31,415 nucleotides of DNA, taken from IMG/VR virus record IMGVR_UViG_3300021508_000004, positions 1-31,415 of that record; one strand, 5' to 3'. Of this stretch, positions 1 through 31,415 are shown piece after piece (position 1 is the stretch's first letter; each line of letters starts with the position of its first letter). The stretch comes from a virus. Below the pieces are notes generated by a model. That model searched no databases. It worked only from the letters and a program-made list of their open reading frames with translations, and was not told the DNA's origin. Position numbers and translations under genes: made by a program.

Positions 1-55
1 TATTTTTTGGGGTGGGGGGGTCACGGGGGGGTCGGGGGGGACCTCTAAATTCTCT
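1..55. repeat. Terminal direct repeat, identical to 31361-31415 (circular overlap)
   Basis: The first 55 bases are identical to the last 55. The small terminase reading frame is continuous when the two copies are merged, so this most likely reflects assembly of a circular or circularly permuted molecule. An overlap of exactly 55 matches a common assembler k-mer size. A real 55-bp terminal repeat cannot be excluded from sequence alone. Confidence 0.85.
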
Positions 56-273
56 AAAATAATTTCAGACTGTTTTTCTACAGATATAGGTACAGATTCA
101 TCTGCCGTAGGTACAGATTCATCTGCCGTAGGTACAGATGTATCTACCAAGGAGTGTTCTTTGGATGAGGTATTATTATCTTCTGTACTTGTATCTAGTG
201 ATGTACTATCATCTAGTGATGTACTATCATCTAGTGATGTACTAGTATCTTCTATGTGTTGTTCATCTCTCAT
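1..273 (-). CDS. terS: Small terminase subunit, N-terminal part (gene continues at 31360)
   Basis: This is the 5' part of the small terminase gene, which crosses the ends of the window. Read through the 55-base overlap, the frame stays open from ATG at 273 to base 1 and on from 31360 to 30770, giving about 287 residues. A GGAG site lies about 12 bases upstream of the ATG, and the ATG overlaps the end of the preceding gene (stop at 263), which suggests translational coupling. These roughly 90 residues are low-complexity: three copies of a 6-residue unit (STSLDD), then two and a half of a 7-residue unit (SVPTADE), then a proline run encoded by C tracts. Such an acidic, repetitive N-terminal extension is unusual for small terminases. 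The DNA-binding part is in the other half. The joining is seen directly; the role comes from the C-terminal half and the adjacent large terminase. Confidence 0.8.
   Translation of the reverse strand, partial: MRDEQHIEDTSTSLDDSTSLDDSTSLDTSTEDNNTSSKEHSLVDTSVPTADESVPTADESVPISVEKQSEIILENLEVPPDPPVTPPPQKI
9..40 (+). other. G-quadruplex-type tract inside the small terminase gene
   Basis: The plus strand carries four G runs of 4, 7, 7 and 7 bases (9-12, 14-20, 25-31, 34-40) separated by 1, 4 and 2 bases. This meets the usual G-quadruplex pattern. The plus strand is the template here, so the mRNA is C-rich and encodes a Pro-rich linker (PPDPPVTPPP). Packaging sites often lie in small terminase genes, so a structural role in packaging start is possible but unproven. 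The homopolymers could also slip. Confidence 0.6.
89..148 (-). repeat. 21-bp in-frame tandem repeat, about 2.8 copies
   Basis: Two perfect 21-bp copies (89-109 and 110-130) are followed by a diverged partial copy (131-148). Each encodes SVPTADE in the small terminase N-terminal extension. Because the unit is a multiple of three, copy-number change would keep the frame. Confidence 0.85.
193..246 (-). repeat. 18-bp in-frame tandem repeat, three copies
   Basis: Three adjacent 18-bp units (193-210, 211-228, 229-246) differ only at the last few bases of the third. Each encodes a six-residue Ser/Thr/Asp unit (STSLDD) near the start of the small terminase. The frame is preserved in all copies. Confidence 0.9.
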
Positions 274-538
274 TTATTAGTACTACTCCTTTGTTGTCGT
301 AGCTCTCTATGTATCTGTTTGGGTAAAGGAAGAGTTGCCGGGGGTCTGGGCCTGTGTAGTGTATAGCTACTCTACCCGTCTCTTGTATCACCCGTATATC
401 TGCCTCTGTATTGTATCTGAATAGGAGCTCCTCTATTGGTTCAATGTTCTCTGTGTCTAGTATCTTATATGAGGTGTATGGAGTTGCCCGGAGTTGGTCA
501 TCTATTGTGTACAGGGAGACTTGTGCGCTTTCCATCAT
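263..538 (-). CDS. Hypothetical protein (91 aa) with GPDPR/SYDN.GV motif
   Basis: I do not recognise a family. The ATG at 538 is preceded by AAGGAGATACA, a strong ribosome site, and overlaps the stop of the upstream sigma gene (ATGA type). Its end overlaps the small terminase start by 11 bases, so it belongs to the same operon. The C-terminal part reads Y.GPDPR, about 14 residues, then SYDNKGVVLI. The same arrangement occurs in the 156-residue protein at 1675-2145 (YIGPDPR, then SYDNDGVFIM), so the two are probably paralogues sharing a C-terminal domain. The position between a sigma factor and the terminase suggests a small phage regulatory or accessory protein; the function is unknown. Confidence 0.75.
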   Translation of the reverse strand: MMESAQVSLYTIDDQLRATPYTSYKILDTENIEPIEELLFRYNTEADIRVIQETGRVAIHYTGPDPRQLFLYPNRYIESYDNKGVVLINER

Positions 539-1026
539 TGTATCTCCTTCACCTTCTTACGTAGACTATATAGCCTTGAGTATACTGTTTGTATGCTTAT
601 CTCCTGTAGTTCGGCTATGTCTGAAGGGGAGTAGCCGCGGATTAACAACGCTAATAGTTCCTTATGTTGAGGCTTTAGCTCCTCCAATGTGAGGCATATG
701 TCGATATAGGATATAACGTCAGGTGTGGGTGCCTTGTAATCGACGAGCTCTTCAGTAGGTTTGTATGTATAGTTATACCAATCTGCACAGTTATTCTGTG
801 TCACTACCTTGAGCCACGGTTCAATAGGTCTGGTGTGGTCATATGTTGATATTCCCCTGAATACCTTCATGAATGTAGTCTGTACTACATCTTCCTTACT
901 TTCCATAGGGTATGGACGGAGAATGCCGCTGACCCAGTACTTAACAAGACCACTGTACTTGTTATAGAACCAGGACCATGCTGCTTCGTTTCCCTCTACT
1001 AGTTTGTCATATCGTTTGGAATCCAT
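535..1026 (-). CDS. ECF-type RNA polymerase sigma factor
   Basis: A 163-residue sigma-70-family protein. Residues 10-85 look like region 2 (EGNEAAWSWFYNKY, EDVVQTTFMKVFRG, then WLKVVTQNNCADW). Residues 114-160 look like region 4 with a helix-turn-helix (LEELKPQHKELLALLIRGYS, then SIQTVYSRLYSLRKKV). This two-domain layout without region 3 and this length are typical of ECF sigma factors, which direct host RNA polymerase to special promoters. I chose the ATG at 1026 because GGGGATATAACG precedes it and the upstream gene stops two bases before it; a longer reading from 1083 would overlap that gene. It sits just before the terminase and late genes, so it may switch on late transcription. That role is inferred. 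Confidence 0.85.
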   Translation of the reverse strand: MDSKRYDKLVEGNEAAWSWFYNKYSGLVKYWVSGILRPYPMESKEDVVQTTFMKVFRGISTYDHTRPIEPWLKVVTQNNCADWYNYTYKPTEELVDYKAPTPDVISYIDICLTLEELKPQHKELLALLIRGYSPSDIAELQEISIQTVYSRLYSLRKKVKEIQ

Positions 1027-1028
1027 CG

Positions 1029-1229
1029 TTATATCCCCGTCAGTATTTTCCCACATGCAGGGCACCTCCGTATATATGACCAACGACCATACCTCAACTT
1101 GAGTTTGAAGTTCTCCTCTATGAGTTCACCCTCTGCATTGTACATAGGACAATACTCTATAACCCCAAGGTCACACCATATTTCTATCAATGAACATAAG
1201 TTCTTGCAATAGTTGAGTGGTTTCGTCAT
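1029..1229 (-). CDS. Small cysteine-rich (zinc-ribbon-like) protein
   Basis: A 66-residue protein with cysteines near both ends (NYCKNLC early, EYCP in the middle, RRCPACGK at the C terminus), the spacing of a small zinc-binding fold. Start at 1229 is preferred because GAGGAAACA lies immediately upstream; a start at 1271 has no such site. The stop lies two bases before the sigma-factor start. Small zinc proteins of this kind are common in phage genomes; the partner or target is unknown. The upstream leader is unusually long and structured (1230-1435) and holds the repeated ACAAGTACA box. Confidence 0.7.
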   Translation of the reverse strand: MTKPLNYCKNLCSLIEIWCDLGVIEYCPMYNAEGELIEENFKLKLRYGRWSYIRRCPACGKILTGI

Positions 1230-1234
1230 TGTTT

Positions 1235-1254
1235 CCTCATTATACTGTACTTGT
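1235..1254 (-). promoter_or_regulatory. ACAAGTACA/TATAAT/GAGG box before a gene start (copy 1)
   Basis: Reading on the minus strand, ACAAGTACA (1254-1246), one base, TATAAT (1244-1239), then GAGG lies directly before the ATG at 1229. The same arrangement occurs at 14212-14204 and 28231-28223. It may be a phage promoter with a very short leader or an RNA operator overlapping the ribosome site; sequence alone does not decide. Confidence 0.45.
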
Positions 1255-1281
1255 ATTTGTCTGATTTCCATTTAAAAGGGA

Positions 1282-1329
1282 GTCGTGCCTCGCAACGTCA
1301 TGGGACGTTAGGAGTGCGCGAGGGACGAC
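1282..1329 (-). ncRNA. Large branched hairpin in the leader of the zinc-ribbon gene
   Basis: Bases 1282-1293 pair with 1318-1329: 5 bp, one G:G (or C:C) mismatch, then 6 bp. Inside is a second perfect 6-bp hairpin with a 4-base loop (294-299 with 304-309 of the same thousand). On the transcribed minus strand it is followed after four bases by a short T run, so weak termination or attenuation is possible. Otherwise it is a structured leader element. Confidence 0.55.
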
Positions 1330-1346
1330 CTACCCATAGGATGTTA

Positions 1347-1408
1347 CTTACGTTTTGTTGAAAATGTGCCTTGGATGTCACTGTGAGTACCTGCCGGTCC
1401 AACGTAAG
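1347..1408 (-). ncRNA. Second structured element in the same intergenic region
   Basis: CTTACG (1347-1352) pairs perfectly with CGTAAG (1403-1408), and TTGGA (1371-1375) pairs with TCCAA (1398-1402) directly on top of it, leaving an 18-base side bulge. It lies just upstream of the branched hairpin at 1282-1329. Together they fill most of the gap between stop 1436 and start 1229 with paired sequence. Confidence 0.45.
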
Positions 1409-1435
1409 ACACAACAACACTCTCACCACTTAATT

Positions 1436-1675
1436 CTAATGAATATCTCCCCATCCTAACGCCTCCAGTCCTTTTTGTGATAGTATTATATACTCTTCAC
1501 TGTCTGTGTCAATGTATGGTTCCAGTGCAGCAATCTCAGTCATAGGTACGACAGTTTGTAGTACAATGAGGGCAGCACATAACTTCTCAACTTCGAAGTC
1601 GTATCCACCTGCCAGAGATGCCTCTATCTGTAGTATTATCTCTAGGTATGTCCGTTGTCCTTTTGTTAGTTTCAT
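1436..1675 (-). CDS. Hypothetical protein (79 aa)
   Basis: No family recognised. The ATG at 1675 shares bases with the stop of the upstream gene (TAATG), and an AGGA site lies about 11 bases upstream, so it is translationally coupled. The protein is mostly helical and acidic, with no transmembrane segment or cysteine cluster beyond one Cys, and ends in GLEALGWGDIH. It is followed by a 206-base gap containing two structured elements. Confidence 0.65.
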   Translation of the reverse strand: MKLTKGQRTYLEIILQIEASLAGGYDFEVEKLCAALIVLQTVVPMTEIAALEPYIDTDSEEYIILSQKGLEALGWGDIH

Positions 1676-2145
1676 TACACATGTATCCTGGACATGATGA
1701 AGACTCCATCATTGTCATAGCTTGCTATCATAAGTTCCCCTAGTGACCAATCAAACCTATCTACGATGGGTCTGGGGTCGGGACCGATGTATCGTAACAC
1801 AGGTTTCCCACATATAGTTTCCGTCCTATCTACTATCTCACCATCTATGACAACGAACGACTTATCATATATGGTACGGGAGAGTGCCGCGTACCACTGG
1901 GTTATCTCTATCACTGCCTGATGTGTGACGACTTTACCCGAATCATTGATGAATGATGGCACATCCACGTATGTGAAGATTGGAGCATCATACCATGCAC
2001 TGTTTATATCTGGCATAACTACACCGATGTCCCTACGTACAAACTTCTGACCAGGTAGGACTAACCTACAACCAAAGGTCTTCTGATTCATACATTCACC
2101 ATTTACGATGTGTGCCACATCAATCTGTACTTGTTCTAGTTCCAT
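1675..2145 (-). CDS. Hypothetical protein (156 aa), paralogue of the 91-aa protein at its C terminus
   Basis: The start ATG at 2145 overlaps the end of the preceding gene by 10 bases. Function not recognised. Residues from about 115 to the end carry RYIGPDPR followed by SYDNDGVFIMSRI, matching the C-terminal arrangement of the protein at 263-538. The N-terminal two thirds are unique here. The shared module points to duplication within this operon, and the genes may act in the same process. Confidence 0.7.
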   Translation of the reverse strand: MELEQVQIDVAHIVNGECMNQKTFGCRLVLPGQKFVRRDIGVVMPDINSAWYDAPIFTYVDVPSFINDSGKVVTHQAVIEITQWYAALSRTIYDKSFVVIDGEIVDRTETICGKPVLRYIGPDPRPIVDRFDWSLGELMIASYDNDGVFIMSRIHV

Positions 2146-2642
2146 TTGATACCATCAGTTATTGTTAGTTTACTATCCGAGTATACGAAGATGTTTGGTC
2201 CTATGTTTAGAATGGACACGTTACCCGGGACAGATGTGGGTTCTTCATCAACCCACCTGCCATATACTTCTCTACATACTTCTACAACACCAGGGATGGA
2301 TGTGAGTTCGCAGGATTCTTTGAGTATAGCTAACGAATGTGGTCGTTCTACCTCTGTTCCCTCCGTGGAGTAGAATGAAGCATACTCTGAACCTTCCCAC
2401 CATTCATCTACATCTAGTTTTACTATGTATGCTCTAGTGAAACCATATATGTCATCTATTAAGTCATAGTCCATTGCATCTTCTATACCAAGTGTGGATG
2501 CTATGTCCTTTATGAACAATGCCATATGTTGGAGAGTAAGAGTTATGCCGTGCCCGTCGACGTTAAGCTTCTGGTACATTTGTAACAGGGATATGCGTCG
2601 ATTGAGCAGGTCAGTTATTTCTTGTTTTTCTTTCTTATTCAT
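2136..2642 (-). CDS. Hypothetical protein (168 aa), first gene of the minus-strand operon
   Basis: Start chosen at 2642 because GGGGAAACA lies immediately upstream; an in-frame ATG at 2705 would place 21 extra residues inside the promoter-like sequence and has no ribosome site. The protein begins MNKKEKQEITDLLNRRISLL, a charged helical stretch, and is acidic overall (LDVDEWWEGSEYASF in the middle). No family recognised. As the first gene after the divergent control region it should be expressed early in this operon. Confidence 0.7.
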   Translation of the reverse strand: MNKKEKQEITDLLNRRISLLQMYQKLNVDGHGITLTLQHMALFIKDIASTLGIEDAMDYDLIDDIYGFTRAYIVKLDVDEWWEGSEYASFYSTEGTEVERPHSLAILKESCELTSIPGVVEVCREVYGRWVDEEPTSVPGNVSILNIGPNIFVYSDSKLTITDGIKWN

Positions 2643-2678
2643 TGTTTCCCCATATTTGGTTTCTTTTATATATTTAGA

Positions 2679-2698
2679 ACAGCGTGTCGAAAACGGTT
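2679..2698 (-). promoter_or_regulatory. AACCGTTTT-N6-GCTGT motif, minus-strand copy
   Basis: On the minus strand AACCGTTTT (2698-2690), six bases, then GCTGT (2683-2679), pointing toward the gene starting at 2642. An inverted copy with identical spacing lies at 2788-2807. The distance to the start codon fits a promoter or operator. The core spacing does not match a standard -35/-10 pair, so a special sigma factor or repressor is possible. Confidence 0.5.
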
Positions 2699-2700
2699 GT

Positions 2701-2732
2701 ATCATCCAAGGGACACAGTCCCGAAGGATGAT
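2701..2732. other. Two-tier hairpin
   Basis: ATCATCC (2701-2707) pairs perfectly with GGATGAT (2726-2732), and GGGAC (2710-2714) pairs with GTCCC (2718-2722) around a 3-base loop, giving 12 bp in 32 bases. It lies between the two divergent 20-bp motifs. No T run follows on either strand, so it is not a simple terminator. Confidence 0.6.
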
Positions 2733-2780
2733 GACGGGAGAGTGAAGGCAACTTCTTTTTGTTGACTTTGCTCACCCGTC
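2733..2780. other. Long hairpin (about 18 bp stem)
   Basis: GACGGG (2733-2738) pairs with CCCGTC (2775-2780), an A:A mismatch follows, then 2740-2752 pairs with 2761-2773 (12 of 13 positions counting two wobbles) around a T-rich 8-base loop. It abuts the previous hairpin, so the two could form a cruciform or a structured RNA between divergent promoters. Confidence 0.6.
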
Positions 2781-2787
2781 GAAGGAA

Positions 2788-2807
2788 AACCGTTTTAAAA
2801 GTGCTGT
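2788..2807 (+). promoter_or_regulatory. AACCGTTTT-N6-GCTGT motif, plus-strand copy
   Basis: AACCGTTTT (2788-2796), six bases, GCTGT (2803-2807), followed at once by TATACA. It mirrors the minus-strand copy at 2698-2679. The 14 defined positions are identical in both copies, which is unlikely by chance this close together. Confidence 0.5.
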
Positions 2808-2816
2808 ATACATTTA

Positions 2817-2843
2817 TTTTTCTTTTCTTGAGGAAAAGAAAAG
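2817..2843. other. Polypurine/polypyrimidine hairpin
   Basis: An 11-base T/C stretch (2817-2827) pairs perfectly with an A/G stretch (2833-2843) around a 5-base loop. It lies 10 bases past the plus-strand 20-bp motif, so it would sit near the 5' end of any transcript started there. Confidence 0.5.
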
Positions 2844-3121
2844 GTTGAGTAACCCTCCCTGGTCCTGTTGTTATGTACTATCATCTTTAGGGTTTATTGC
2901 TACTCGATGCAGTAAAAAACCTTCTACACTAGTAATAGCGTATGAGAGGGTACTTTTGCGTACACTATTTGTCACTTATTTTTACTTCCATGTACGATTG
3001 TTCGTAACTTACTGTAAACAAAGGAGATGCCACCACTTATATAACTCTCCATATTTACTCATCACATATGTCCTTTATTATCAATGGGTTATGTGTGTGA
3101 TATTTTCAGAGTGTCTTTTCG

Positions 3122-3130
3122 TGGTATAAT
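3122..3130 (+). promoter_or_regulatory. Extended -10 promoter for the plus-strand operon
   Basis: TGGTATAAT is a perfect -10 box with the extended TG element; no good -35 hexamer is visible 17 bases upstream, as is common for extended -10 promoters. Transcription would start near 3137, giving a leader of about 45 bases before the ATG at 3182. This fits recognition by the host's main sigma factor at the start of infection. Confidence 0.7.
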
Positions 3131-3181
3131 AGAAGTGTGAGGAAAAGAAAACAATACATTACAAATACACAAGGAGATTCA

Positions 3182-3463
3182 ATGACTAAACATGACTACC
3201 CAGAGACTTGCATGGTATGTGAACATCTGACTCAGAAGAAACAACCCCTGTTGGCTGGTAGACTAAAGAGGTTGATTGGAGCAGAGAAGGGTGTAATGAA
3301 TGGTGGTAAGAGCAAGAAGGAGTACCGTTGTTGGACAGAAGTGAGACTGTGTCCCGTATGTAAGTCTGTACATTGGGGAGAGGAGTTGTTCCGCGATGAG
3401 GATACAAAAGATGCTAGAATAGAAGAACTAGAAGATTTAACGGGGATATACGAGGAACTATAG
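3182..3463 (+). CDS. Small zinc-ribbon protein (93 aa)
   Basis: Start at 3182 is chosen because ACAAGGAGATTCA directly precedes it; an in-frame start at 3137 lacks a site and would lie at the transcription start. Cysteine pairs ETCMVCEH near the N terminus and RLCPVCKS around residues 57-60 form a probable four-cysteine zinc site, with a basic central stretch between them and an acidic C-terminal helix. The stop shares a base with the next gene's GTG start. First gene of the plus-strand operon; function not known. Confidence 0.75.
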   Translation: MTKHDYPETCMVCEHLTQKKQPLLAGRLKRLIGAEKGVMNGGKSKKEYRCWTEVRLCPVCKSVHWGEELFRDEDTKDARIEELEDLTGIYEEL

Positions 3464-3918
3464 TGTTATACGAATACATTGGAAAATTAGTATATAAGAA
3501 CAAGTCCGTATACGGTGCCTGTTTTACCAATGAGGAAACTGAAGACATTATTTCGGATTGCGTATTGGAGTACCTGAGGCTTGCTGGGGATAGGAAGAAG
3601 CAGCTCCCTACCTTGGTTCATAATAACGTTGTTGACCGCCTGCGTCACAGGTCGGTAATAACATTTGTGGAGCTAGATGCTGCACCTGAACCGGCAACCT
3701 CACCTACCAATATGACAGATGTAATATATGATGTATCGAAGTACTTAGACGAAGATGAGATATATATAGTAAGGATGCGTGTGGCAGGGTTTACGTACAG
3801 AGAAATCTCGACCAAAACCAAACAGAACATATCAAGAAAAATGAAAGTAATAAAAGATAAATTAGCCGAATACAAAGAGCTAATAGAGGGAGAACCAAAT
3901 GAAGAACTACACGAATAA
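3463..3918 (+). CDS. Sigma-factor-like regulator (151 aa)
   Basis: A short sigma-70-like protein. Residues about 20-66 resemble region 2 (NEETEDIISDCVLEYLRLA, then LVHNNVVDRLRHRSV), and residues about 95-142 resemble region 4 (YLDEDEIYIVRMRVAGFTYR, then a helix-turn-helix through ISRKMKVIKDKLAEY). It starts at GTG, overlapping the upstream TAG by one base, with GAGGA seven bases before. The region-2 part is shorter and more diverged than in the factor at 535-1026, so it may be a sigma-like transcription regulator rather than a full sigma factor. Placed in the likely early operon, it could activate the divergent minus-strand arm. That is inference. Confidence 0.65.
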   Translation: MLYEYIGKLVYKNKSVYGACFTNEETEDIISDCVLEYLRLAGDRKKQLPTLVHNNVVDRLRHRSVITFVELDAAPEPATSPTNMTDVIYDVSKYLDEDEIYIVRMRVAGFTYREISTKTKQNISRKMKVIKDKLAEYKELIEGEPNEELHE

Positions 3919-4567
3919 GAGACACGGTGACTACCATGTTACGACCAAGACCGGGGAGAACAACGACCAGGGTTATAGGATATGGAATGCTTACTGTGTG
4001 TACTGTAGTAAAAGAATAACATTAACAACCCAACAAATATCAATGAACAGGCATCTACGATGTGGTTGTTGGGAAAACGATAAGAATACAACCGAAGGAA
4101 TAGCACTCATGGACACATTTGGTAAGTTGACAGTCTCCAATACATCAAAAGATGGATTTGTGTGTACATGTGAATGTGGAGAGACTGTAACGTGTACCGC
4201 ATACGACCTACTCTACCACATGCGGAGTTGTGGTTGTGCGATAGTCAAAGATGGTAGTTATATAGATGGTGATGGGTATCGTTACATACGAAAACCAGGA
4301 CATCCTCGGGCATCACAACATGGCTACGTTCGTGAACATATCGTAGTGATGGAAGATAAACTTGGACGTTCATTAAGAGAGGGAGAGGTTGTCCATCATA
4401 TAAATGGAATAAAGGATGACAACAGACCCGAGAACTTGTGGGTATTTGATAACAATACCCTCCATATGAGATTTCACCATCTACTGAAGAATCAAAACAA
4501 AGAACTACTAACTGAGTTTCCTGTTATTATGAAGGAAGAGTATCCAGACGTGATGGAGGTGCTATAA
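3899..4567 (+). CDS. HNH endonuclease with zinc-ribbon N-terminal repeats
   Basis: A 222-residue protein. The N-terminal half has two cysteine-rich modules (C33, C36, C55, C57, then C89 to C113), each resembling the zinc ribbons seen in phage homing-type nucleases. The C-terminal half has the HNH nuclease signature: REHIVVMEDKLGRSL, then GEVVHHINGIKDDNRPENLW around residues 162-181, with the His pair at 166-167 and the Asn of the motif following. Such enzymes cut double-stranded DNA and are often mobile. The gene overlaps the sigma-like gene by 20 bases and is followed by a TAATG junction, so it is well embedded in the operon rather than freshly inserted. It could act in packaging or in attack on competing DNA. 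Confidence 0.85.
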   Translation: MKNYTNKRHGDYHVTTKTGENNDQGYRIWNAYCVYCSKRITLTTQQISMNRHLRCGCWENDKNTTEGIALMDTFGKLTVSNTSKDGFVCTCECGETVTCTAYDLLYHMRSCGCAIVKDGSYIDGDGYRYIRKPGHPRASQHGYVREHIVVMEDKLGRSLREGEVVHHINGIKDDNRPENLWVFDNNTLHMRFHHLLKNQNKELLTEFPVIMKEEYPDVMEVL

Positions 4568-5013
4568 TGAAAACAACTGCTACAGAACTATGCTACTGGT
4601 GGAATGAAGAGACTGACAGACTATACCAGTACTATATTAAAGAAGGTAAGAACGAATATTTGTCAACGAGGATTGCTGCGGCAGCCACTAGACCAGTGTA
4701 TATAAATGACGAGGAGTTCTCCCGTATATGGAGGGACATAAACGAAATATACACAACATACCAAGCATGTTCCCATACCACCTCGATAATGGATTGGATG
4801 GAGATGGAATTAGTATATGACGAGGTTGTTCGTTGTAAAAGAGAGGAAATCCGAGCAAGGTTCGTTCTAGGTGGAGAGTGTTGGGAACGTGTTACAGAGT
4901 CACTTAATAAATTAATAGAGATATCAGAAGAATTAGGCGAAGCACTTTTAGAGATGACAAGAATAGTAGAGCAATTCAGGGATGAATTGGAGGAGAGTAA
5001 CATATGCAATTAG
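4567..5013 (+). CDS. Hypothetical helical protein (148 aa)
   Basis: No family recognised. Starts at a TAATG overlap, with GGAGGTG upstream. The sequence is predominantly helical. The last 45 residues form an acidic amphipathic segment (ESLNKLIEISEELGEALLEM and on) that may be a coiled coil. Its end overlaps the phosphoesterase start by 10 bases, so the two are likely co-translated. Confidence 0.7.
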   Translation: MKTTATELCYWWNEETDRLYQYYIKEGKNEYLSTRIAAAATRPVYINDEEFSRIWRDINEIYTTYQACSHTTSIMDWMEMELVYDEVVRCKREEIRARFVLGGECWERVTESLNKLIEISEELGEALLEMTRIVEQFRDELEESNICN

Positions 5014-5843
5014 TAGATTATAAAGTCGATGTCAAGGGTGTCAATGATGGTGTTAGTGTCTGGGGCATCGGTGACATACATGTGGGGAGCCGGGCTTGTG
5101 ATGAGAAGCTACTTCACTCAATAGTATCCCGGGTAAAGAAGAACAAGAAGGCTCGTGTTGTTCTCATGGGTGACCTCATAGAGGCAATCAACCCCACAGA
5201 CAAGAGGTTCGATGCAACCAACCTACCAGATTGGGTAGAGTTCAAAGACCTCGATAACCTGGCAATCATACAGTGTAATCGTGTTGTGGATATGCTCCTA
5301 CCCATTGCTGATAAAATCATATGTAGTGTTGCTGGTAATCATGAAGCCACGGCACATCGTCGCTACCACTTCGACCCACATGACTACATATTAACACGAC
5401 TTCGAGACAAGGCAAAGGTCATGATACACAATGGTGGTTATGGTCAGTGTATCCTACGTCTTAAGACCAAGAGGGGAAGCCACACAACCACAACGATGTT
5501 CTCCCTGTTCCACGGAAGTGGTGGTGGAGTAACCCTCGGAGGTACAATAAATAAACAGGTTAAGACACTGGACTACATCGAATGTGATGTGAAGATGTCC
5601 GGGCACACACACCAACTAACCGAGGCACTTGTTCCTCGTTGTTATGTACCTTCATCTGGCAAACTAGACCTTATAAGTAAACCAAAGGTCATAGTACAGA
5701 CAGGTTCATATCTAAAGACATATGGTGATGACTTCACGACATATAGTGAGATGCGGGAATATGCCCCGGTCCCTCTTGGCTCGCCGGAAGTAATAATTAC
5801 TGGTGATGTTCCTAAGATGCAGGTAATTTTACATACCGGATAA
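5004..5843 (+). CDS. Calcineurin-like metallophosphoesterase
   Basis: A 279-residue protein with the full set of binuclear-metal motifs of the calcineurin-like phosphoesterase fold in order: GDIHVG (23-28), GDLIEA (56-61), GNHEA (111-115), a later His in SLFHGSGG (about 170), and SGHTHQ (199-204). Family members hydrolyse phosphodiesters, including nucleic acids and cyclic nucleotides; phage versions often belong to DNA-processing or nucleotide-metabolism modules. It is similar in build to phage-encoded SbcD/Mre11-type or phosphatase proteins but lacks an SbcC partner here. Start has GGAGAGTAACAT upstream. The substrate is not determined. Confidence 0.9.
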   Translation: MQLVDYKVDVKGVNDGVSVWGIGDIHVGSRACDEKLLHSIVSRVKKNKKARVVLMGDLIEAINPTDKRFDATNLPDWVEFKDLDNLAIIQCNRVVDMLLPIADKIICSVAGNHEATAHRRYHFDPHDYILTRLRDKAKVMIHNGGYGQCILRLKTKRGSHTTTTMFSLFHGSGGGVTLGGTINKQVKTLDYIECDVKMSGHTHQLTEALVPRCYVPSSGKLDLISKPKVIVQTGSYLKTYGDDFTTYSEMREYAPVPLGSPEVIITGDVPKMQVILHTG

Positions 5844-5846
5844 ATA

Positions 5847-6293
5847 ATGAGTAGACTCAAAAATGAAATCAGGAACGTATACGGGAGACTCACTGTTGTT
5901 GCTCGTGCTCCAAATGTGGGTACGAAGACCGCGTGGGTATGTATATGTAGTTGTAGTGGGAAGAGTGTTATCGTACTTGGTACAAGTCTTCGTAGCGGTA
6001 ACACTCAGAGTTGTGGTTGCTACAACAGGGATATGGTGAGGGAAACGTGGCTGGGTAGAAGTCACACAAATGAGAGTAAAGATAGAATGAGTAAATCACG
6101 GACGGGTAAATATAAAGGCAAAAATTGTCCAAATTATAATGAAGAACTAACCGACGAAGAACGAAGAATTAATAACACGAGAACAAGCAGAGCAAGACAC
6201 AAAAAGTGGGTCATCCACGATATTCTGTCTTGGTGGGGAGAACGTGAACGGAGAGCCTGCTCAGTTTGGAAATCCCGGGATTACATGGGTTGA
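5847..6293 (+). CDS. Homing-endonuclease-like protein, HNH part missing
   Basis: Residues 1-60 are a zinc-ribbon module (WVCICSCSG around 30-38, SCGCYN around 55-60) of the type at the N terminus of many phage homing enzymes. Residues 70-91 (GRSHTNESKDRMSKSRTGKY) match the NUMOD3 DNA-binding motif. Normally an HNH or GIY-YIG nuclease is attached; here the expected nuclease segment after NYNEELTDEERRINN is absent and the last 38 residues look like filler. A second frame (+1) is open from 6151 to 6390, right up to the terminator. The gene is therefore probably truncated, frameshifted or fused to foreign sequence. The ribosome site is weak. Confidence 0.6.
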   Translation: MSRLKNEIRNVYGRLTVVARAPNVGTKTAWVCICSCSGKSVIVLGTSLRSGNTQSCGCYNRDMVRETWLGRSHTNESKDRMSKSRTGKYKGKNCPNYNEELTDEERRINNTRTSRARHKKWVIHDILSWWGERERRACSVWKSRDYMG

Positions 6294-6390
6294 GTGGCCG
6301 ACTCCCATTGATGTTGGTATAAAGATAGTGGGTTCGAATATAGGTATTGAATCCACATCGGTCGGGAACATCAAAGCAACCTTCAAATAA
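6151..6390 (+). pseudogene. Open +1 frame, possible gene remnant or frameshifted C terminus
   Basis: This frame has no ATG but is open for 79 codons, overlaps the end of the homing-enzyme-like gene, and stops at 6388-6390, 15 bases before the terminator stem. It translates to protein-like sequence (GENVNGEPAQFGNPGITWVE, later VGSNIGIESTSVGNIKATFK). A GTG at 6244 with GGGGAG just before could start a 48-residue protein. It may be the tail of a gene interrupted by the homing element, or the true C terminus reached by frameshift. Low certainty. Confidence 0.35.
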
Positions 6391-6404
6391 CTTTTGGTAA
6401 GAAC

Positions 6405-6437
6405 AAACCCCCATCAGAACGGTGGGGGTTTATTTTT
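6405..6437 (+). terminator. Intrinsic terminator of the plus-strand operon
   Basis: AAACCCCCA (6405-6413) pairs perfectly with TGGGGGTTT (6423-6431) around a 9-base loop and is followed by ATTTTTATA. It ends the plus-strand operon and lies 25 bases beyond the 3' end of the convergent minus-strand operon, whose reading through the same stem gives only a weak T run. Confidence 0.9.
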
Positions 6438-6461
6438 ATATACAGGGAGATTGTCAACCAT

Positions 6462-8276
6462 CTATACTAGTTTATAATAAAATTGCATGGTTGCAAAGTC
6501 CACATTAGATATACCATCAGACGGGCACCCTTCTAAACGAATGATAACCCCTCCAGCATTTGAACCAATGAATATATTTTCATCACCCGTAAAGTATGTA
6601 CTAAAATCAAACTGTTTTAGGACCAGGGTTGTGTTGTCTTCCCATATCTGAGCAACACCTGGGTTGTAGGAGCGGTCGTCTCCTCCCGTCCGTATTCCAT
6701 CCACTATCTGATTGCCAACAGACCCACTATCTGCACCGAAGTTCTCAACAGTTATCAGCTCAAATTTCTTACCAGTAGTGGACTTCACGTTGTAGATAAG
6801 TAACTTTATATCAGCGGAATTCCCTTGAGAGAACATATCGAAACGATACCCCAACATCTCAAAGTCATTATTTTGATAGTCAGAATATCCCAACACACCT
6901 ATGTCGTAGTCGATTCCGGTAATACCTGCTGGTATATCTATATTAGTTACTTCCCACCACTTCTTGTCTGATTGATAGTATACTGTGTCAGTATCAACAG
7001 TGATTGTCTCTGTATCACCCGTGACAGGGACTGCGGTTGTCTCGGCCAGTGATGTTCCAGTAATCGTAACATCACCACTCCCGGTCAATGAGTTAATATA
7101 AAGGTAAATATGGTTGTTAGATACAGCGAAGTCGGTAGTATAATCCCCGGTCTCACCCGATGTCACCTCTCTGAACTCACCCGTTATATTCAGTTGATTA
7201 TCTATCACTGTACGTAGAGGGAACGTAAATGATACCATTCTAACATCATCAATGTTTTCCCAACGGCTATCTGTACCATCCCACTGTAAAAGTTGTTTGT
7301 CAGCGATACCAGATATGAGAACATCACTCAACTCATTAGTGTTAGGTTGCGGAATTATTTTTACATACATCGAACCTTCGGTTGCATGTTTACGTAGAAC
7401 AACCCCTACAAACACCTGTGAATTAGGTTGTGTTGGTAGAGATGCCGACAATTCGCCAGCAGTTGTACTTAAGAATGCCGGTCGTCCATCAGCAGCTACG
7501 AAGTCGGTATCTATGTCACGGACGATACCATATGTTGTGAAGTATCCAAACTGGTTATTGAGAACCTGCTCTGTAGACACGGCTATGGTTGCATTCGCTA
7601 TAAGGTGTACCGTTGCGTCTGCCAGTCCCACTTCTGGGTTGATACCGTCTGCACCGGATATGTATACAGGTGTGCCATGTGCGATGGTGTCGCCACTTGC
7701 GTTCTTTGCTCGTATGTATAGTTCCTGCCCAACTTGAAGTGTAGACACTCCTCCAGCCATCCCTACTTCAAGTGTCTTGTCATCATCGTTCCAGTTTAAT
7801 CTACCCTCTTGGGTAGTTGGTGCTGCGGTAAGGTCGAAGTCAATGTAATCCAGGTCCTCTATGTCGTTACGACTTTCCCACTTACCCGTTGAAGCATCGT
7901 ATGTGAGGATTGAGTTGTCGGACGGGGTAGGTACGTCCACATCTATCAGGTCGTCTAACTCTCCTACCCTAATATGAAAAGGAGTAACATATAGTGTCAT
8001 AGTATTTGGCGCTGAAGATTTGTCGGTGATTTTACACCTTGTATATATGTAAACATGACCAACACTTACCTTTTCGTCCTTTATAACAGAGACAGTACCC
8101 GAGTCATACAACTCGTCCCATGTACTATCATCCGAACTTCCCTCTAATATAAGAGAGAAGGTGCCGTCCGCACCATCTATGTTAAAGTTAAATGTATCCT
8201 CTCCGCCCTTTCGAGTTAGAGTATGAGTATCGCTGGCTCCCGCTCCTAGTGAATATGTCAATGTTTGTAAAGCCAT
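6462..8276 (-). CDS. Tail appendage/fibre-like structural protein (604 aa)
   Basis: Last gene of the long minus-strand operon. The sequence is rich in Gly, Ser, Thr, Asp and short beta-like repeats, without cysteine clusters or transmembrane helices. Phage fibre-type phrases recur: LDDLIDVDVPTPSDNSILTY followed by a similar LSDVLISGIADKQLLQWDGT, i.e. two copies of the 'bind/describe' linker that punctuates tail-fibre and appendage proteins. The C-terminal 150 residues may be a globular receptor-binding or trimerisation domain. The ATG at 8276 sits two bases after the stop of the upstream gene with AGGAGAC before it. Exact role not shown. Confidence 0.65.
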   Translation of the reverse strand: MALQTLTYSLGAGASDTHTLTRKGGEDTFNFNIDGADGTFSLILEGSSDDSTWDELYDSGTVSVIKDEKVSVGHVYIYTRCKITDKSSAPNTMTLYVTPFHIRVGELDDLIDVDVPTPSDNSILTYDASTGKWESRNDIEDLDYIDFDLTAAPTTQEGRLNWNDDDKTLEVGMAGGVSTLQVGQELYIRAKNASGDTIAHGTPVYISGADGINPEVGLADATVHLIANATIAVSTEQVLNNQFGYFTTYGIVRDIDTDFVAADGRPAFLSTTAGELSASLPTQPNSQVFVGVVLRKHATEGSMYVKIIPQPNTNELSDVLISGIADKQLLQWDGTDSRWENIDDVRMVSFTFPLRTVIDNQLNITGEFREVTSGETGDYTTDFAVSNNHIYLYINSLTGSGDVTITGTSLAETTAVPVTGDTETITVDTDTVYYQSDKKWWEVTNIDIPAGITGIDYDIGVLGYSDYQNNDFEMLGYRFDMFSQGNSADIKLLIYNVKSTTGKKFELITVENFGADSGSVGNQIVDGIRTGGDDRSYNPGVAQIWEDNTTLVLKQFDFSTYFTGDENIFIGSNAGGVIIRLEGCPSDGISNVDFATMQFYYKLV

Positions 8277-8883: not shown

Positions 8884-9126
8884 CTATACTATGATTGATA
8901 GAATATATATTAACAACATCACGCCAGATGTTGATGCTATTGCCCATCCATTCACGATAAGTGCAACAATGATGATTGTTCCCACCATAGAGCGCCAAAA
9001 CTTCTTCTCTTCGTTTGCCGCGTTAAGTTGTTCTTGTAATGAATGTACCGATGTATAGAGGTCATCAAAATACCCCCTACATACATCATATACTCTCTCT
9101 TTTGATTTTGTCGGTAGTTCGTTCAT
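8884..9126 (-). CDS. Small membrane protein (80 aa)
   Basis: Residues 1-45 are hydrophilic and helical (SVHSLQEQLNAANEEKKFW), followed by a long hydrophobic segment from about 47 to the C terminus that could form one or two membrane helices. Starts at a TAATG overlap with the upstream membrane protein. With its two neighbours it forms a three-gene membrane cluster in the usual place for lysis genes, so a holin or anti-holin role is plausible but unproven. Confidence 0.6.
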   Translation of the reverse strand: MNELPTKSKERVYDVCRGYFDDLYTSVHSLQEQLNAANEEKKFWRSMVGTIIIVALIVNGWAIASTSGVMLLIYILSIIV

Positions 9127-9410
9127 TAGATTAGTCCAAATGCCAGCTTAAGTACGGCAATAACCACCAGTGTTATGATACCAGATACCGTAGGAGTAAA
9201 GAGAGTTAGCACAACTCCAAGTATGACCCCTGCAATCTTCATTGTTGTTTGTATCTTAGTAACCTCGGTTGTGAGTTTGTCTATCTTACCATCTATAGTT
9301 ACTACATTTGCTGACACCTTTTCTATATCTTCCTTGTTCCTCTCCACCCTTGGAAAGAGGTTTGCCCCGACTAAACACTTATCATCACAGGTGTCGTTTT
9401 TATCTGTCAT
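9126..9410 (-). CDS. Small membrane protein with coiled-coil, holin-accessory-like (94 aa)
   Basis: A cysteine pair near the N terminus (DTCDDKCLVG) is followed by a predicted coiled coil (VERNKEDIEKVSANVVTIDG and on to about residue 55) and a hydrophobic C-terminal stretch (about 58-94) for one or two membrane helices. This build, helix then membrane anchor, recalls XhlA-type haemolysin/holin partners. GGAGA lies 10 bases upstream within the preceding gene, with an 11-base overlap. Confidence 0.6.
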   Translation of the reverse strand: MTDKNDTCDDKCLVGANLFPRVERNKEDIEKVSANVVTIDGKIDKLTTEVTKIQTTMKIAGVILGVVLTLFTPTVSGIITLVVIAVLKLAFGLI

Positions 9411-9678
9411 TGTTATAGGTCTCCGTGTATTTCTTATTAATTAGGTCCATGGTTACGTTACCCACGATATAGGTAGTCACGACCCCTGCCGTAGTAATAA
9501 ATACGTTTAGTGAATATGGTTGTAACCACTCAAACACAGGAATGGCTGGGAGTACGAATGCTGCAATAACCCCACATATGACTATACCTAGTGTTAGTCC
9601 AAACTTACGGCTGGTGAGCCGTTTGTAGAACATAAGAAAGGTTTTTATCGTGATGTCTAATTTTTCTTTAGTACTCAT
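9400..9678 (-). CDS. Putative holin (92 aa, two membrane segments)
   Basis: Two hydrophobic segments (about 27-47, GLTLGIVICGVIAAFVLPAI, and about 57-75, LNVFITTAGVVTTYIVGNV) are flanked by a basic N-terminal part and a charged C-terminal tail (INKKYTETYNNDR). This is the usual size and topology of a class II holin. GGAGGTG lies upstream, and its start overlaps the previous gene by 11 bases. No endolysin gene is adjacent, so the assignment rests on topology only. Confidence 0.55.
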   Translation of the reverse strand: MSTKEKLDITIKTFLMFYKRLTSRKFGLTLGIVICGVIAAFVLPAIPVFEWLQPYSLNVFITTAGVVTTYIVGNVTMDLINKKYTETYNNDR

Positions 9679-21543: not shown

Positions 21544-22116
21544 CTATTCTATTTCATCCCATTGGAAACGTGTACCGGGTCGTATATCTCCAATCTCTAC
21601 TGGTCCCTGACCTAGAGATGGTGTTTTACGTGCCAGTGATGCCAGTTTGAATGGGTCCCTACTGTGACGTAAGAAGTCTTCAGTGGCGATGAATCTTGGA
21701 CCTCCAGGCATCAGACCGAAAGCTGCCCGGTTTATTAACAGTAAGATAATGTCAACAGCACCCGGGGATATATATACATCTCTACCCATGCGCGATTGAT
21801 ACGCATGGTAGGGTATCTTTGTACCAACAATTACACCATGGACAGACTTGATAATCAAGCTATCCGCTGTCTTCTCCGTCAGGCTGGTCCACAATCTACG
21901 TGCTAATGTGTCCCATGGTTTCCTGGAACGACGTTTGGTTTTACGAGCAGTTGCTCCTTTTATAGGAGGTAACAGACCAGCATTCAACTGTCTCTCAAAA
22001 TCCTCGTGAATAACCTTAATCAGGGAATCACCTAGTGGTCCCTTCATCGCCAGAACCAAAGGAAGATTGACACGTCTGACGGCAACCCTTATAGCTATAC
22101 CAGCTTTAACCCCCAT
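21544..22116 (-). CDS. Phage virion morphogenesis-type protein (190 aa)
   Basis: Basic protein (GATARKTKRRSRKPWDTLAR) with a short central stretch HAYQSRMGRD that resembles the loop in Mu gpG-like virion-morphogenesis/tail-completion proteins. It lies within the tail block. AAAAGGAG sits immediately upstream, in the run that closes the terminator at 22131-22164, so expression depends on read-through or on a promoter within. Assignment to the gpG-like family is a guess from motif and place. Confidence 0.45.
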   Translation of the reverse strand: MGVKAGIAIRVAVRRVNLPLVLAMKGPLGDSLIKVIHEDFERQLNAGLLPPIKGATARKTKRRSRKPWDTLARRLWTSLTEKTADSLIIKSVHGVIVGTKIPYHAYQSRMGRDVYISPGAVDIILLLINRAAFGLMPGGPRFIATEDFLRHSRDPFKLASLARKTPSLGQGPVEIGDIRPGTRFQWDEIE

Positions 22117-22130
22117 ATATTTCTCCTTTT

Positions 22131-22164
22131 AAAAATCCCCCGGTTCATAGTATAGTACGGGGGA
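22131..22164 (-). terminator. Intrinsic terminator or attenuator inside the tail operon
   Basis: TCCCCCG (22136-22142) pairs with CGGGGGA (22158-22164), 7 bp with a 15-base loop, followed on the minus strand by a T run (22135-22131). It lies after the stop at 22196 and just before the ribosome site of the 190-residue gene. Full termination would cut off the tape measure and fibre genes, so partial read-through or antitermination is implied. Confidence 0.75.
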
Positions 22165-22936: not shown

Positions 22937-22966
22937 TTCCCTCCAGAAAAAGTATGTTATGTGAAT

Positions 22967-23047
22967 TGGAGAAGCTCAGACTCGAACTGAGGTCCGTGCC
23001 GGTTCCCACAAGGGGCTGTCCGCCACGTCGATACCATTCTCTTCCCC
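22967..23047 (-). ncRNA. tmRNA-like tRNA-like domain without message part
   Basis: An 81-nt element in RNA order. GGGGAAG (23047-23041) pairs with CTTCTCC (22974-22968) as a 7-bp acceptor stem with G3:U70, followed by A73, the alanine identity features of tRNA-Ala and tmRNA. Next is AGAATGGTATCGAC (23040-23027), a D-loop with no D stem, close to the 5' sequence of tmRNA. A capped stem follows: GTG/CAC and CGG/CCG, with a CCC/GGG tip. Then comes GGAC (as in E. coli tmRNA before its T arm) and a perfect T arm CTCAG-TTCGAGT-CTGAG (22991-22975). No anticodon arm fits. The tag frame and pseudoknots of tmRNA are absent: only 31 nt join D-loop and GGAC. CCA is not encoded. Family likeness is from memory. 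Confidence 0.6.
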
Positions 23048-23087
23048 TTTGGTGTCGGTCAAGTATTTCATGAGTTAGAATTCATTC

Positions 23088-23125
23088 CAATGTATGATGT
23101 ATACCCATGATACATACCGACATTG
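23088..23125 (-). ncRNA. Hairpin H4 upstream of the tRNA-like domain
   Basis: CAATGT (23088-23093) pairs with ACATTG (23120-23125), and inside ATGTAT (23097-23102) pairs with ATACAT (23110-23115), 12 bp with a small internal loop. No T run follows, so it is not a terminator. Confidence 0.55.
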
Positions 23126-23127
23126 TA

Positions 23128-23160
23128 GAGTAACAACCCAGCTATGCAAGATTGTTACTC
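23128..23160 (-). ncRNA. Hairpin H3
   Basis: A perfect 9-bp stem, GAGTAACAA (23128-23136) with TTGTTACTC (23152-23160), and a 15-base loop. It lies two bases from H4. No T run on the transcribed strand. Confidence 0.6.
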
Positions 23161-23166
23161 AGTTGT

Positions 23167-23195
23167 GTGCGAGATGGCGCTAACCATCATCGCAC
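23167..23195 (-). ncRNA. Hairpin H2
   Basis: GTGCGA/TCGCAC (23167-23172 with 23190-23195) continues as GATGG/CCATC (23173-23177 with 23184-23188) with one bulged base and a 6-base loop: 11 bp. This is the most stable-looking of the four. Confidence 0.6.
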
Positions 23196-23205
23196 GTGTG
23201 GTCTA

Positions 23206-30795: not shown

Positions 30796-31415
30796 CTTCT
30801 ACTACCTCTGCTTCTATGATGTCCAGTGTATCTATGACATTCACGTTAAAGTTAACATCTACATTACCTTCATGTGTAACGTTGTGGTGCTTCTTGAGGA
30901 GCCCACGTCTCTCATAATACAATCTCATAGCATTAACATCACCAGAGATAGCCTTTCGGTGGCACACCTCATCTACCCCTACATCCAGTTCCTTGTAGTA
31001 TATATCCAATAGACGGTTAACATTGTCGAAGAACCCATCCTTATGGCTCCACTTACCTAATGTATTGGGATGTACACCTATTTCGGCTGCCATCTCCTTC
31101 CTGGTACGTCCATCAGGGTTAACCATCATCAACATATACCTCATTTGGTCATATGACCACTTACCCTTGATAAGATGTAGTACACCAGATGTTATATCCT
31201 CGGGTACAGCAGGGACAAGTGCGTCGTTTTGACATGTGTCATCTTGACATACCTCATTATTAGATGCGTCATTTTGGCGTACCTCAGTTTCAGACTCAAA
31301 AATTACCCCATTTTCATGATTTTGGTCATCACTTTTTTCCAAAATATTTTTTTCCAAAATTATTTTTTGGGGTGGGGGGGTCACGGGGGGGTCGGGGGGG
31401 ACCTCTAAATTCTCT
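30770..31415 (-). CDS. terS: Small terminase subunit, C-terminal part (start at 273 across the join)
   Basis: From residue about 84 of the full protein onward. Following a linker with imperfect repeats (VRQNDASNNEVCQDDTCQND), a helix-turn-helix appears near residues 175-203 of the full chain (RKEMAAEIGVHPNTLGKWSH), then a helical oligomerisation-type region (NRLLDIYYKELDVG, MRLYYERRGLL) and an acidic tail. This is the expected pattern for a DNA-recognising small terminase that feeds DNA to the large subunit. A GTG at 31384 could start a shorter product, but the open frame continues to the better-supported ATG at 273. Confidence 0.8.
   Translation of the reverse strand, partial: ENLEVPPDPPVTPPPQKIILEKNILEKSDDQNHENGVIFESETEVRQNDASNNEVCQDDTCQNDALVPAVPEDITSGVLHLIKGKWSYDQMRYMLMMVNPDGRTRKEMAAEIGVHPNTLGKWSHKDGFFDNVNRLLDIYYKELDVGVDEVCHRKAISGDVNAMRLYYERRGLLKKHHNVTHEGNVDVNFNVNVIDTLDIIEAEVVEDGLESESE
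31361..31415. repeat. Terminal direct repeat, identical to 1-55
   Basis: Second copy of the 55-base end repeat; merging it with 1-55 restores the small terminase frame. See the entry at 1-55. Confidence 0.85.

Follow-up and report, generated by a model that had tools for sequence, protein, structure and literature searches.

Genome setting of the divergent control region

Nearly all genes of the small uncultured virus of bacteria analysed here are read in two directions from one spot, which raises the question of what an inverted sequence motif flanking two large hairpins does at this spot. The ends of the window, i.e. of the whole stretch of 31,415 nucleotides that was analysed, overlap exactly by 55 bp (1–55 and 31361–31415). 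Therefore, the phage genome, about 31.4 kb in size, is most likely circular or circularly permuted. Its sole divergent control region (2643–3181) is enclosed by the first leftward ATG (2642–2640) and the first rightward ATG (3182), and the divergent context described in the initial annotation is thus correct. The leftward block of about 27.6 kb crosses the ends of the window and finishes at 6462. It contains an ECF-type sigma factor, terminase, portal and capsid, followed by genes of structural size. The rightward block (about 3 kb) comprises a small protein, a sigma-like protein, an HNH protein, a further gene, a metallophosphoesterase and a NUMOD protein. Relevant features outside the motif pair are:

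535–1083, minus strand: ECF-type sigma factor, a 182-aa ORF of the leftward block (TIGR02937, 4.7e-16; Pfam region 2, 1.3e-8)
2136–2642, minus strand: first gene of the leftward block
3103–3130, plus strand: sigma70-like promoter TTTTCA-16-TATAAT, its second hexamer preceded by TG, shortly before the rightward block
3463–3918, plus strand: sigma-like protein with weak support, encoded by the second gene of the rightward block (phrog_1740, 1.7e-4)
6405–6431, plus strand: intrinsic terminator-like hairpin where the leftward and rightward blocks converge
22163–22130, minus strand: terminator-like CCCCCG..CGGGGG-ATTTTT within the leftward block, immediately ahead of the gene at 22116

A further profile match of the sigma-like protein at 3463–3918 (0.025) was below the cut-off, and the structures predicted for both sigma-like proteins from single sequences were of no use (pLDDT 39 and 37). 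The proteins encoded at 263–538, 1675–2145 and perhaps 2136–2642 (minus strand) have a C-terminal pattern GPDPR...YDN-GV in common, recognized by eye, which suggests that they are paralogues. ORF 273–1 continues as 31414–30770 and encodes the small subunit of the terminase, which is extended considerably at its N-terminus; within this extension, a short tandem repeat at 200–245 (TCTAGTGATGTACTA...) codes for SLDDSTSLDDSTSLD.

The motif pair and the hairpins form one predicted fold

The motif reads AACCGTTTT-N6-GCTGT. Its left copy on the minus strand is AACCGTTTTCGACACGCTGT and its right copy on the plus strand is AACCGTTTTAAAAGTGCTGT; as described initially, both (2698–2679 and 2788–2807) are exact at all 14 defined positions. 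A third copy with two or fewer mismatches is absent from the whole record, the next-best sites within the window having three. The two abutting hairpins of 12 and 18 bp described between the copies were likewise found, separated from the motif by 2 unpaired bases at the left arm and 7 at the right arm:

2679–2698, minus strand: left motif copy, read leftwards; 5' strand of the basal stem P1 on the plus strand
2701–2732: hairpin P2, 12 bp (7+5), internal loop AA/GAA, loop ACA
2733–2780: hairpin P3, 18 bp (6+8+4), loop TTCTTTTT
2781–2787: purine-rich junction GAAGGAA, linking P3 to P1
2788–2807, plus strand: right motif copy; 3' strand of P1

In the same control region, an exact 14-bp repeat, TGAGGAAAAGAAAA, is present in two copies. 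One (2829–2842, plus strand) is located 22 bp past the right motif copy, and the other (3138–3151) just downstream of the promoter-like site at 3103–3130, starting 8 bp after its -10 element.

All 45 of the 45 predicted pairs belong to one closed three-way junction with junction stretches of 2, 0 and 7 nt. This single-junction fold is predicted on both strands, and on the plus strand the minimum free energy structure equals the centroid. P1 consists of 2679–2684 paired with 2802–2807 and of 2690–2698 paired with 2788–2796, with pair probabilities of 0.84–0.95. The 14 defined motif positions are exactly the P1 pairs, bar one extra wobble pair, and the variable 6-bp gap of the motif corresponds to the internal loop and this extra pair. 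The symmetry of the motif is thus explained without a second protein site. According to the predicted fold, the motif pair would be the base of one structure that includes the hairpins and need not represent two protein sites.

Chance does not account for the hairpins. Out of 2000 dinucleotide-preserving shuffles of the hairpin core (2699–2787), not one folded as well on either strand, and 2666–2795 is the most structured 130-bp stretch among about 480 windows across the 31.4-kb genome. The basal motif as a stem brings only a modest energy gain over shuffled flanks: with the hairpins fixed, shuffled AT-rich flanks were as good as P1 in 95 of 2000 cases on the plus strand and in 10 of 2000 on the minus strand.

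As RNA, the element has a fold energy of -59.8 kcal/mol on the plus strand versus -53.3 kcal/mol on the minus strand. Two wobble pairs of P3 (T2743.G2770 and G2744.T2769) and one of P1 (G2684.U2802), three in the predicted plus-strand fold overall, form solely in plus-strand RNA. In these models a rightward RNA is slightly preferred, being more stable and having wobble pairs of its own; as a guide to the strand, the modelled wobble pairs are weak. The z-scores of the full element, however, are equal on both strands (-7.2), and the conditional P1 test, at the 5% level on the plus strand and at 0.5% on the minus strand, favours the latter.

A putative structured RNA in the control region

We tentatively favour a reading in which 2679–2807 is one folded three-way junction, with the motif pair as its base P1 and with P2 and P3 as arms, that acts as RNA. 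It may well be a regulatory RNA, either a switch or a leader. From this one sequence we infer that it would be transcribed, with a slight preference for the rightward strand and an RNA start near 2680, and that the structured leader or small RNA would tune the expression level of the divergent blocks. For instance, RNA polymerase may be modified, or the transcript attenuated and stabilized, where a very long transcription unit begins. Consistent with the RNA reading, a weak promoter-like site on the plus strand (TTCCCC-17-TATATT, 2646–2674, 8/12) would yield an RNA beginning near 2680, at the edge of P1; 8/12 sites of this kind are common. Since the 27.6-kb leftward block has a single internal terminator-like hairpin, the one at 22163, a leader that alters termination would have a target. 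The P1 test with fixed hairpins counts against the preference for the plus strand. No clear terminator follows P1, and in Rfam the element scores above the threshold of no family. It is also conceivable that the leftward motif copy overlaps a promoter while the whole serves as a folded leader.

A bidirectional terminator, suggested by AAAACGGTT..AACCGTTTT, was rejected as the main reading: its loop would be 89 nt long and itself folded, and it would lie between divergent gene starts.

The putL and putR antiterminator RNAs of phage HK022 comprise about 70 nt with two adjacent stem-loops and are located near early phage promoters (PMC9378689). P2 and P3 likewise abut, span about 80 nt and are located in a divergent control region; this likeness is geometric only. 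In contrast to put, a basal stem closes a three-way junction here, and the phages are unrelated. A blastn-short comparison of 2699–2787 with HK022 24000–40000 returned only chance 9–11-mers. By analogy, the element perhaps works like put, with no membership in that family claimed. More speculatively, and in our view improbably, the locus may hold a hitherto undescribed kind of phage element, an RNA (or DNA) three-way junction that is the single control hub of a genome without recognizable replication genes. Examples would be a processive antiterminator of a new class or an origin that depends on the host.

Should the element function as RNA, this phage would have a compact switch controlling a genome that seems to be read entirely from a single spot, and the few known phage RNAs acting directly on transcription would gain a member. 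At present, it is a well-defined and testable candidate in an uncultured phage that has only distant relatives in the collections searched.

Binding sites, replication origin or chance repeat

It is possible, if rather doubtful, that the motif copies are outward-facing binding sites, namely divergent promoters of a phage sigma factor or operators of a phage regulator, as proposed in the initial annotation. In that case, transcription of the 27.6-kb block would depend on the leftward copy, and the rightward copy would give rise to a leader in the direction of the rightward block. The setting agrees with this proposal: the phage encodes a clear ECF sigma factor besides the weak second sigma-like protein, and its sole divergent control region holds the motif pair with the copies facing outward. 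In 2642–2947 no sigma70-like site of at least 8/12 points left; hence, the leftward block probably needs another promoter. SigmaE-type (ECF) promoters have AAC at -35 and TCTAA at -10. The leftward copy contains AACC-N16-TCTAAA, which we take to resemble these elements and their spacing, and ends 37 bp before the first leftward ATG. By this analogy it is a fair candidate for an ECF promoter. The proposal of a promoter pair, however, does not agree with the spacing. Only 6 bp separate the identical blocks AACCGTTTT and GCTGT (11 bp if counted from AACC), which is too close for -35 and -10 elements; -35 and -10 elements shared by both copies at 15–17 bp spacing were not found, and the candidate -10 differs between the copies (TCTAA versus ATACA). 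Moreover, the rightward copy is about 375 bp away from the first rightward gene, which has a better sigma70-like site of its own at 3103–3130. The motif has no further copy in the genome, and two binding sites leave unexplained the large hairpins that fill the space between them, a difference from divergent phage-sigma promoters; one single fold is the simpler reading of both.

An element acting at the DNA level, either an origin or a cruciform at which a phage devoid of recognizable replication genes recruits host replication proteins, is unlikely. It would account for a large, imperfect palindrome flanked by AT-rich sequence in the one long intergenic region from which genes diverge, in which respects the locus is similar to palindromic (cruciform-type) origins of phages and plasmids, and the DNA fold has a z-score of -7.35. 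Among the proteins scanned or read, a subset of the ORFs, no polymerase, helicase, primase or integrase was recognizable, and a distant relative (contig L115, see below) carries a DnaB-like helicase and RusA. Unlike such origins, however, the region has no DnaA-box-like site with up to one mismatch (2646–3181), the repeat search revealed no iteron array, and no initiator gene was identified. The GC skew, recommended initially as a check, tracks the coding strand, and the wobble pairs leave the two strands unequal. If the locus is an origin, it would show how the host is recruited by a phage without recognizable replication genes.

The hairpins may also be real, e.g. as a leader or an insulating structure, and the motif pair a chance inverted repeat, which we regard as quite unlikely. 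The chance criterion was an inverted pair within 130 bp in which a 9-mer and, at the same offset, a 5-mer match exactly. Of 200 shuffles of the whole window, 29 (15%) contained a pair of this quality, so that the motif pair alone is noteworthy only for its location, and the energy gain of P1 on the plus strand likewise reaches only the 5% level. Against a chance repeat, shuffling the control region 5000 times gave a comparable pair in just 27 cases (0.5%), and the copies bracket the hairpins within 2 and 7 bases.

Search for related control regions

No relative carrying the control region was found in any collection searched (very near records may be left out there); consequently, covariation support is absent. 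A comparison of window positions 1–8000 with phages returned no usable relative of the region, as did protein scans with the neighbouring gene product, TerL, the major capsid protein and the metallophosphoesterase. Genome contigs and distant blastn searches against phages and plasmids gave nothing usable for it either. In viral contigs, the motif-pair pattern had 23 matches, none with convincing homology around the motif, and a relaxed core pattern had none.

TerL alignments yielded distant relatives only, the best being contig L115, which has TerL, TerS, portal, capsid and metallophosphoesterase genes in common with this phage. In the stretch of L115 examined, all identifiable genes have one direction, the contig has no match to the phrog_1740 sigma profile, and its best motif sites have at least 3 mismatches. 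Directly ahead of its terminase genes, L115 has a Pfam CRISPR_assoc match (PF08798, 1e-24) at 9020–9529 on the plus strand; a DNA methylase and a PAPS reductase-like protein are also encoded.

Other structured elements

A tRNA-like element is located at 22966–23047 on the minus strand. It has a 7-bp acceptor stem (GGGGAAG/CUUCUCC) including a G3.U70 wobble, together with A73, an unpaired AGAAUGGUAUCGA, the T-arm CUCAG-UUCGAGU-CUGAG and, instead of an anticodon arm, a closing helix. It resembles the tRNA-like domain of tmRNA without a tag reading frame. ARAGORN gave no match for this element, Rfam only permuted tmRNA (11.7 bits, E 2.8), and the z-score of its fold is -0.6. Adjoining it, 23076–23205 ranks second among the windows of the genome in degree of structure (z -5.3 on the minus strand) and contains several strong hairpins.
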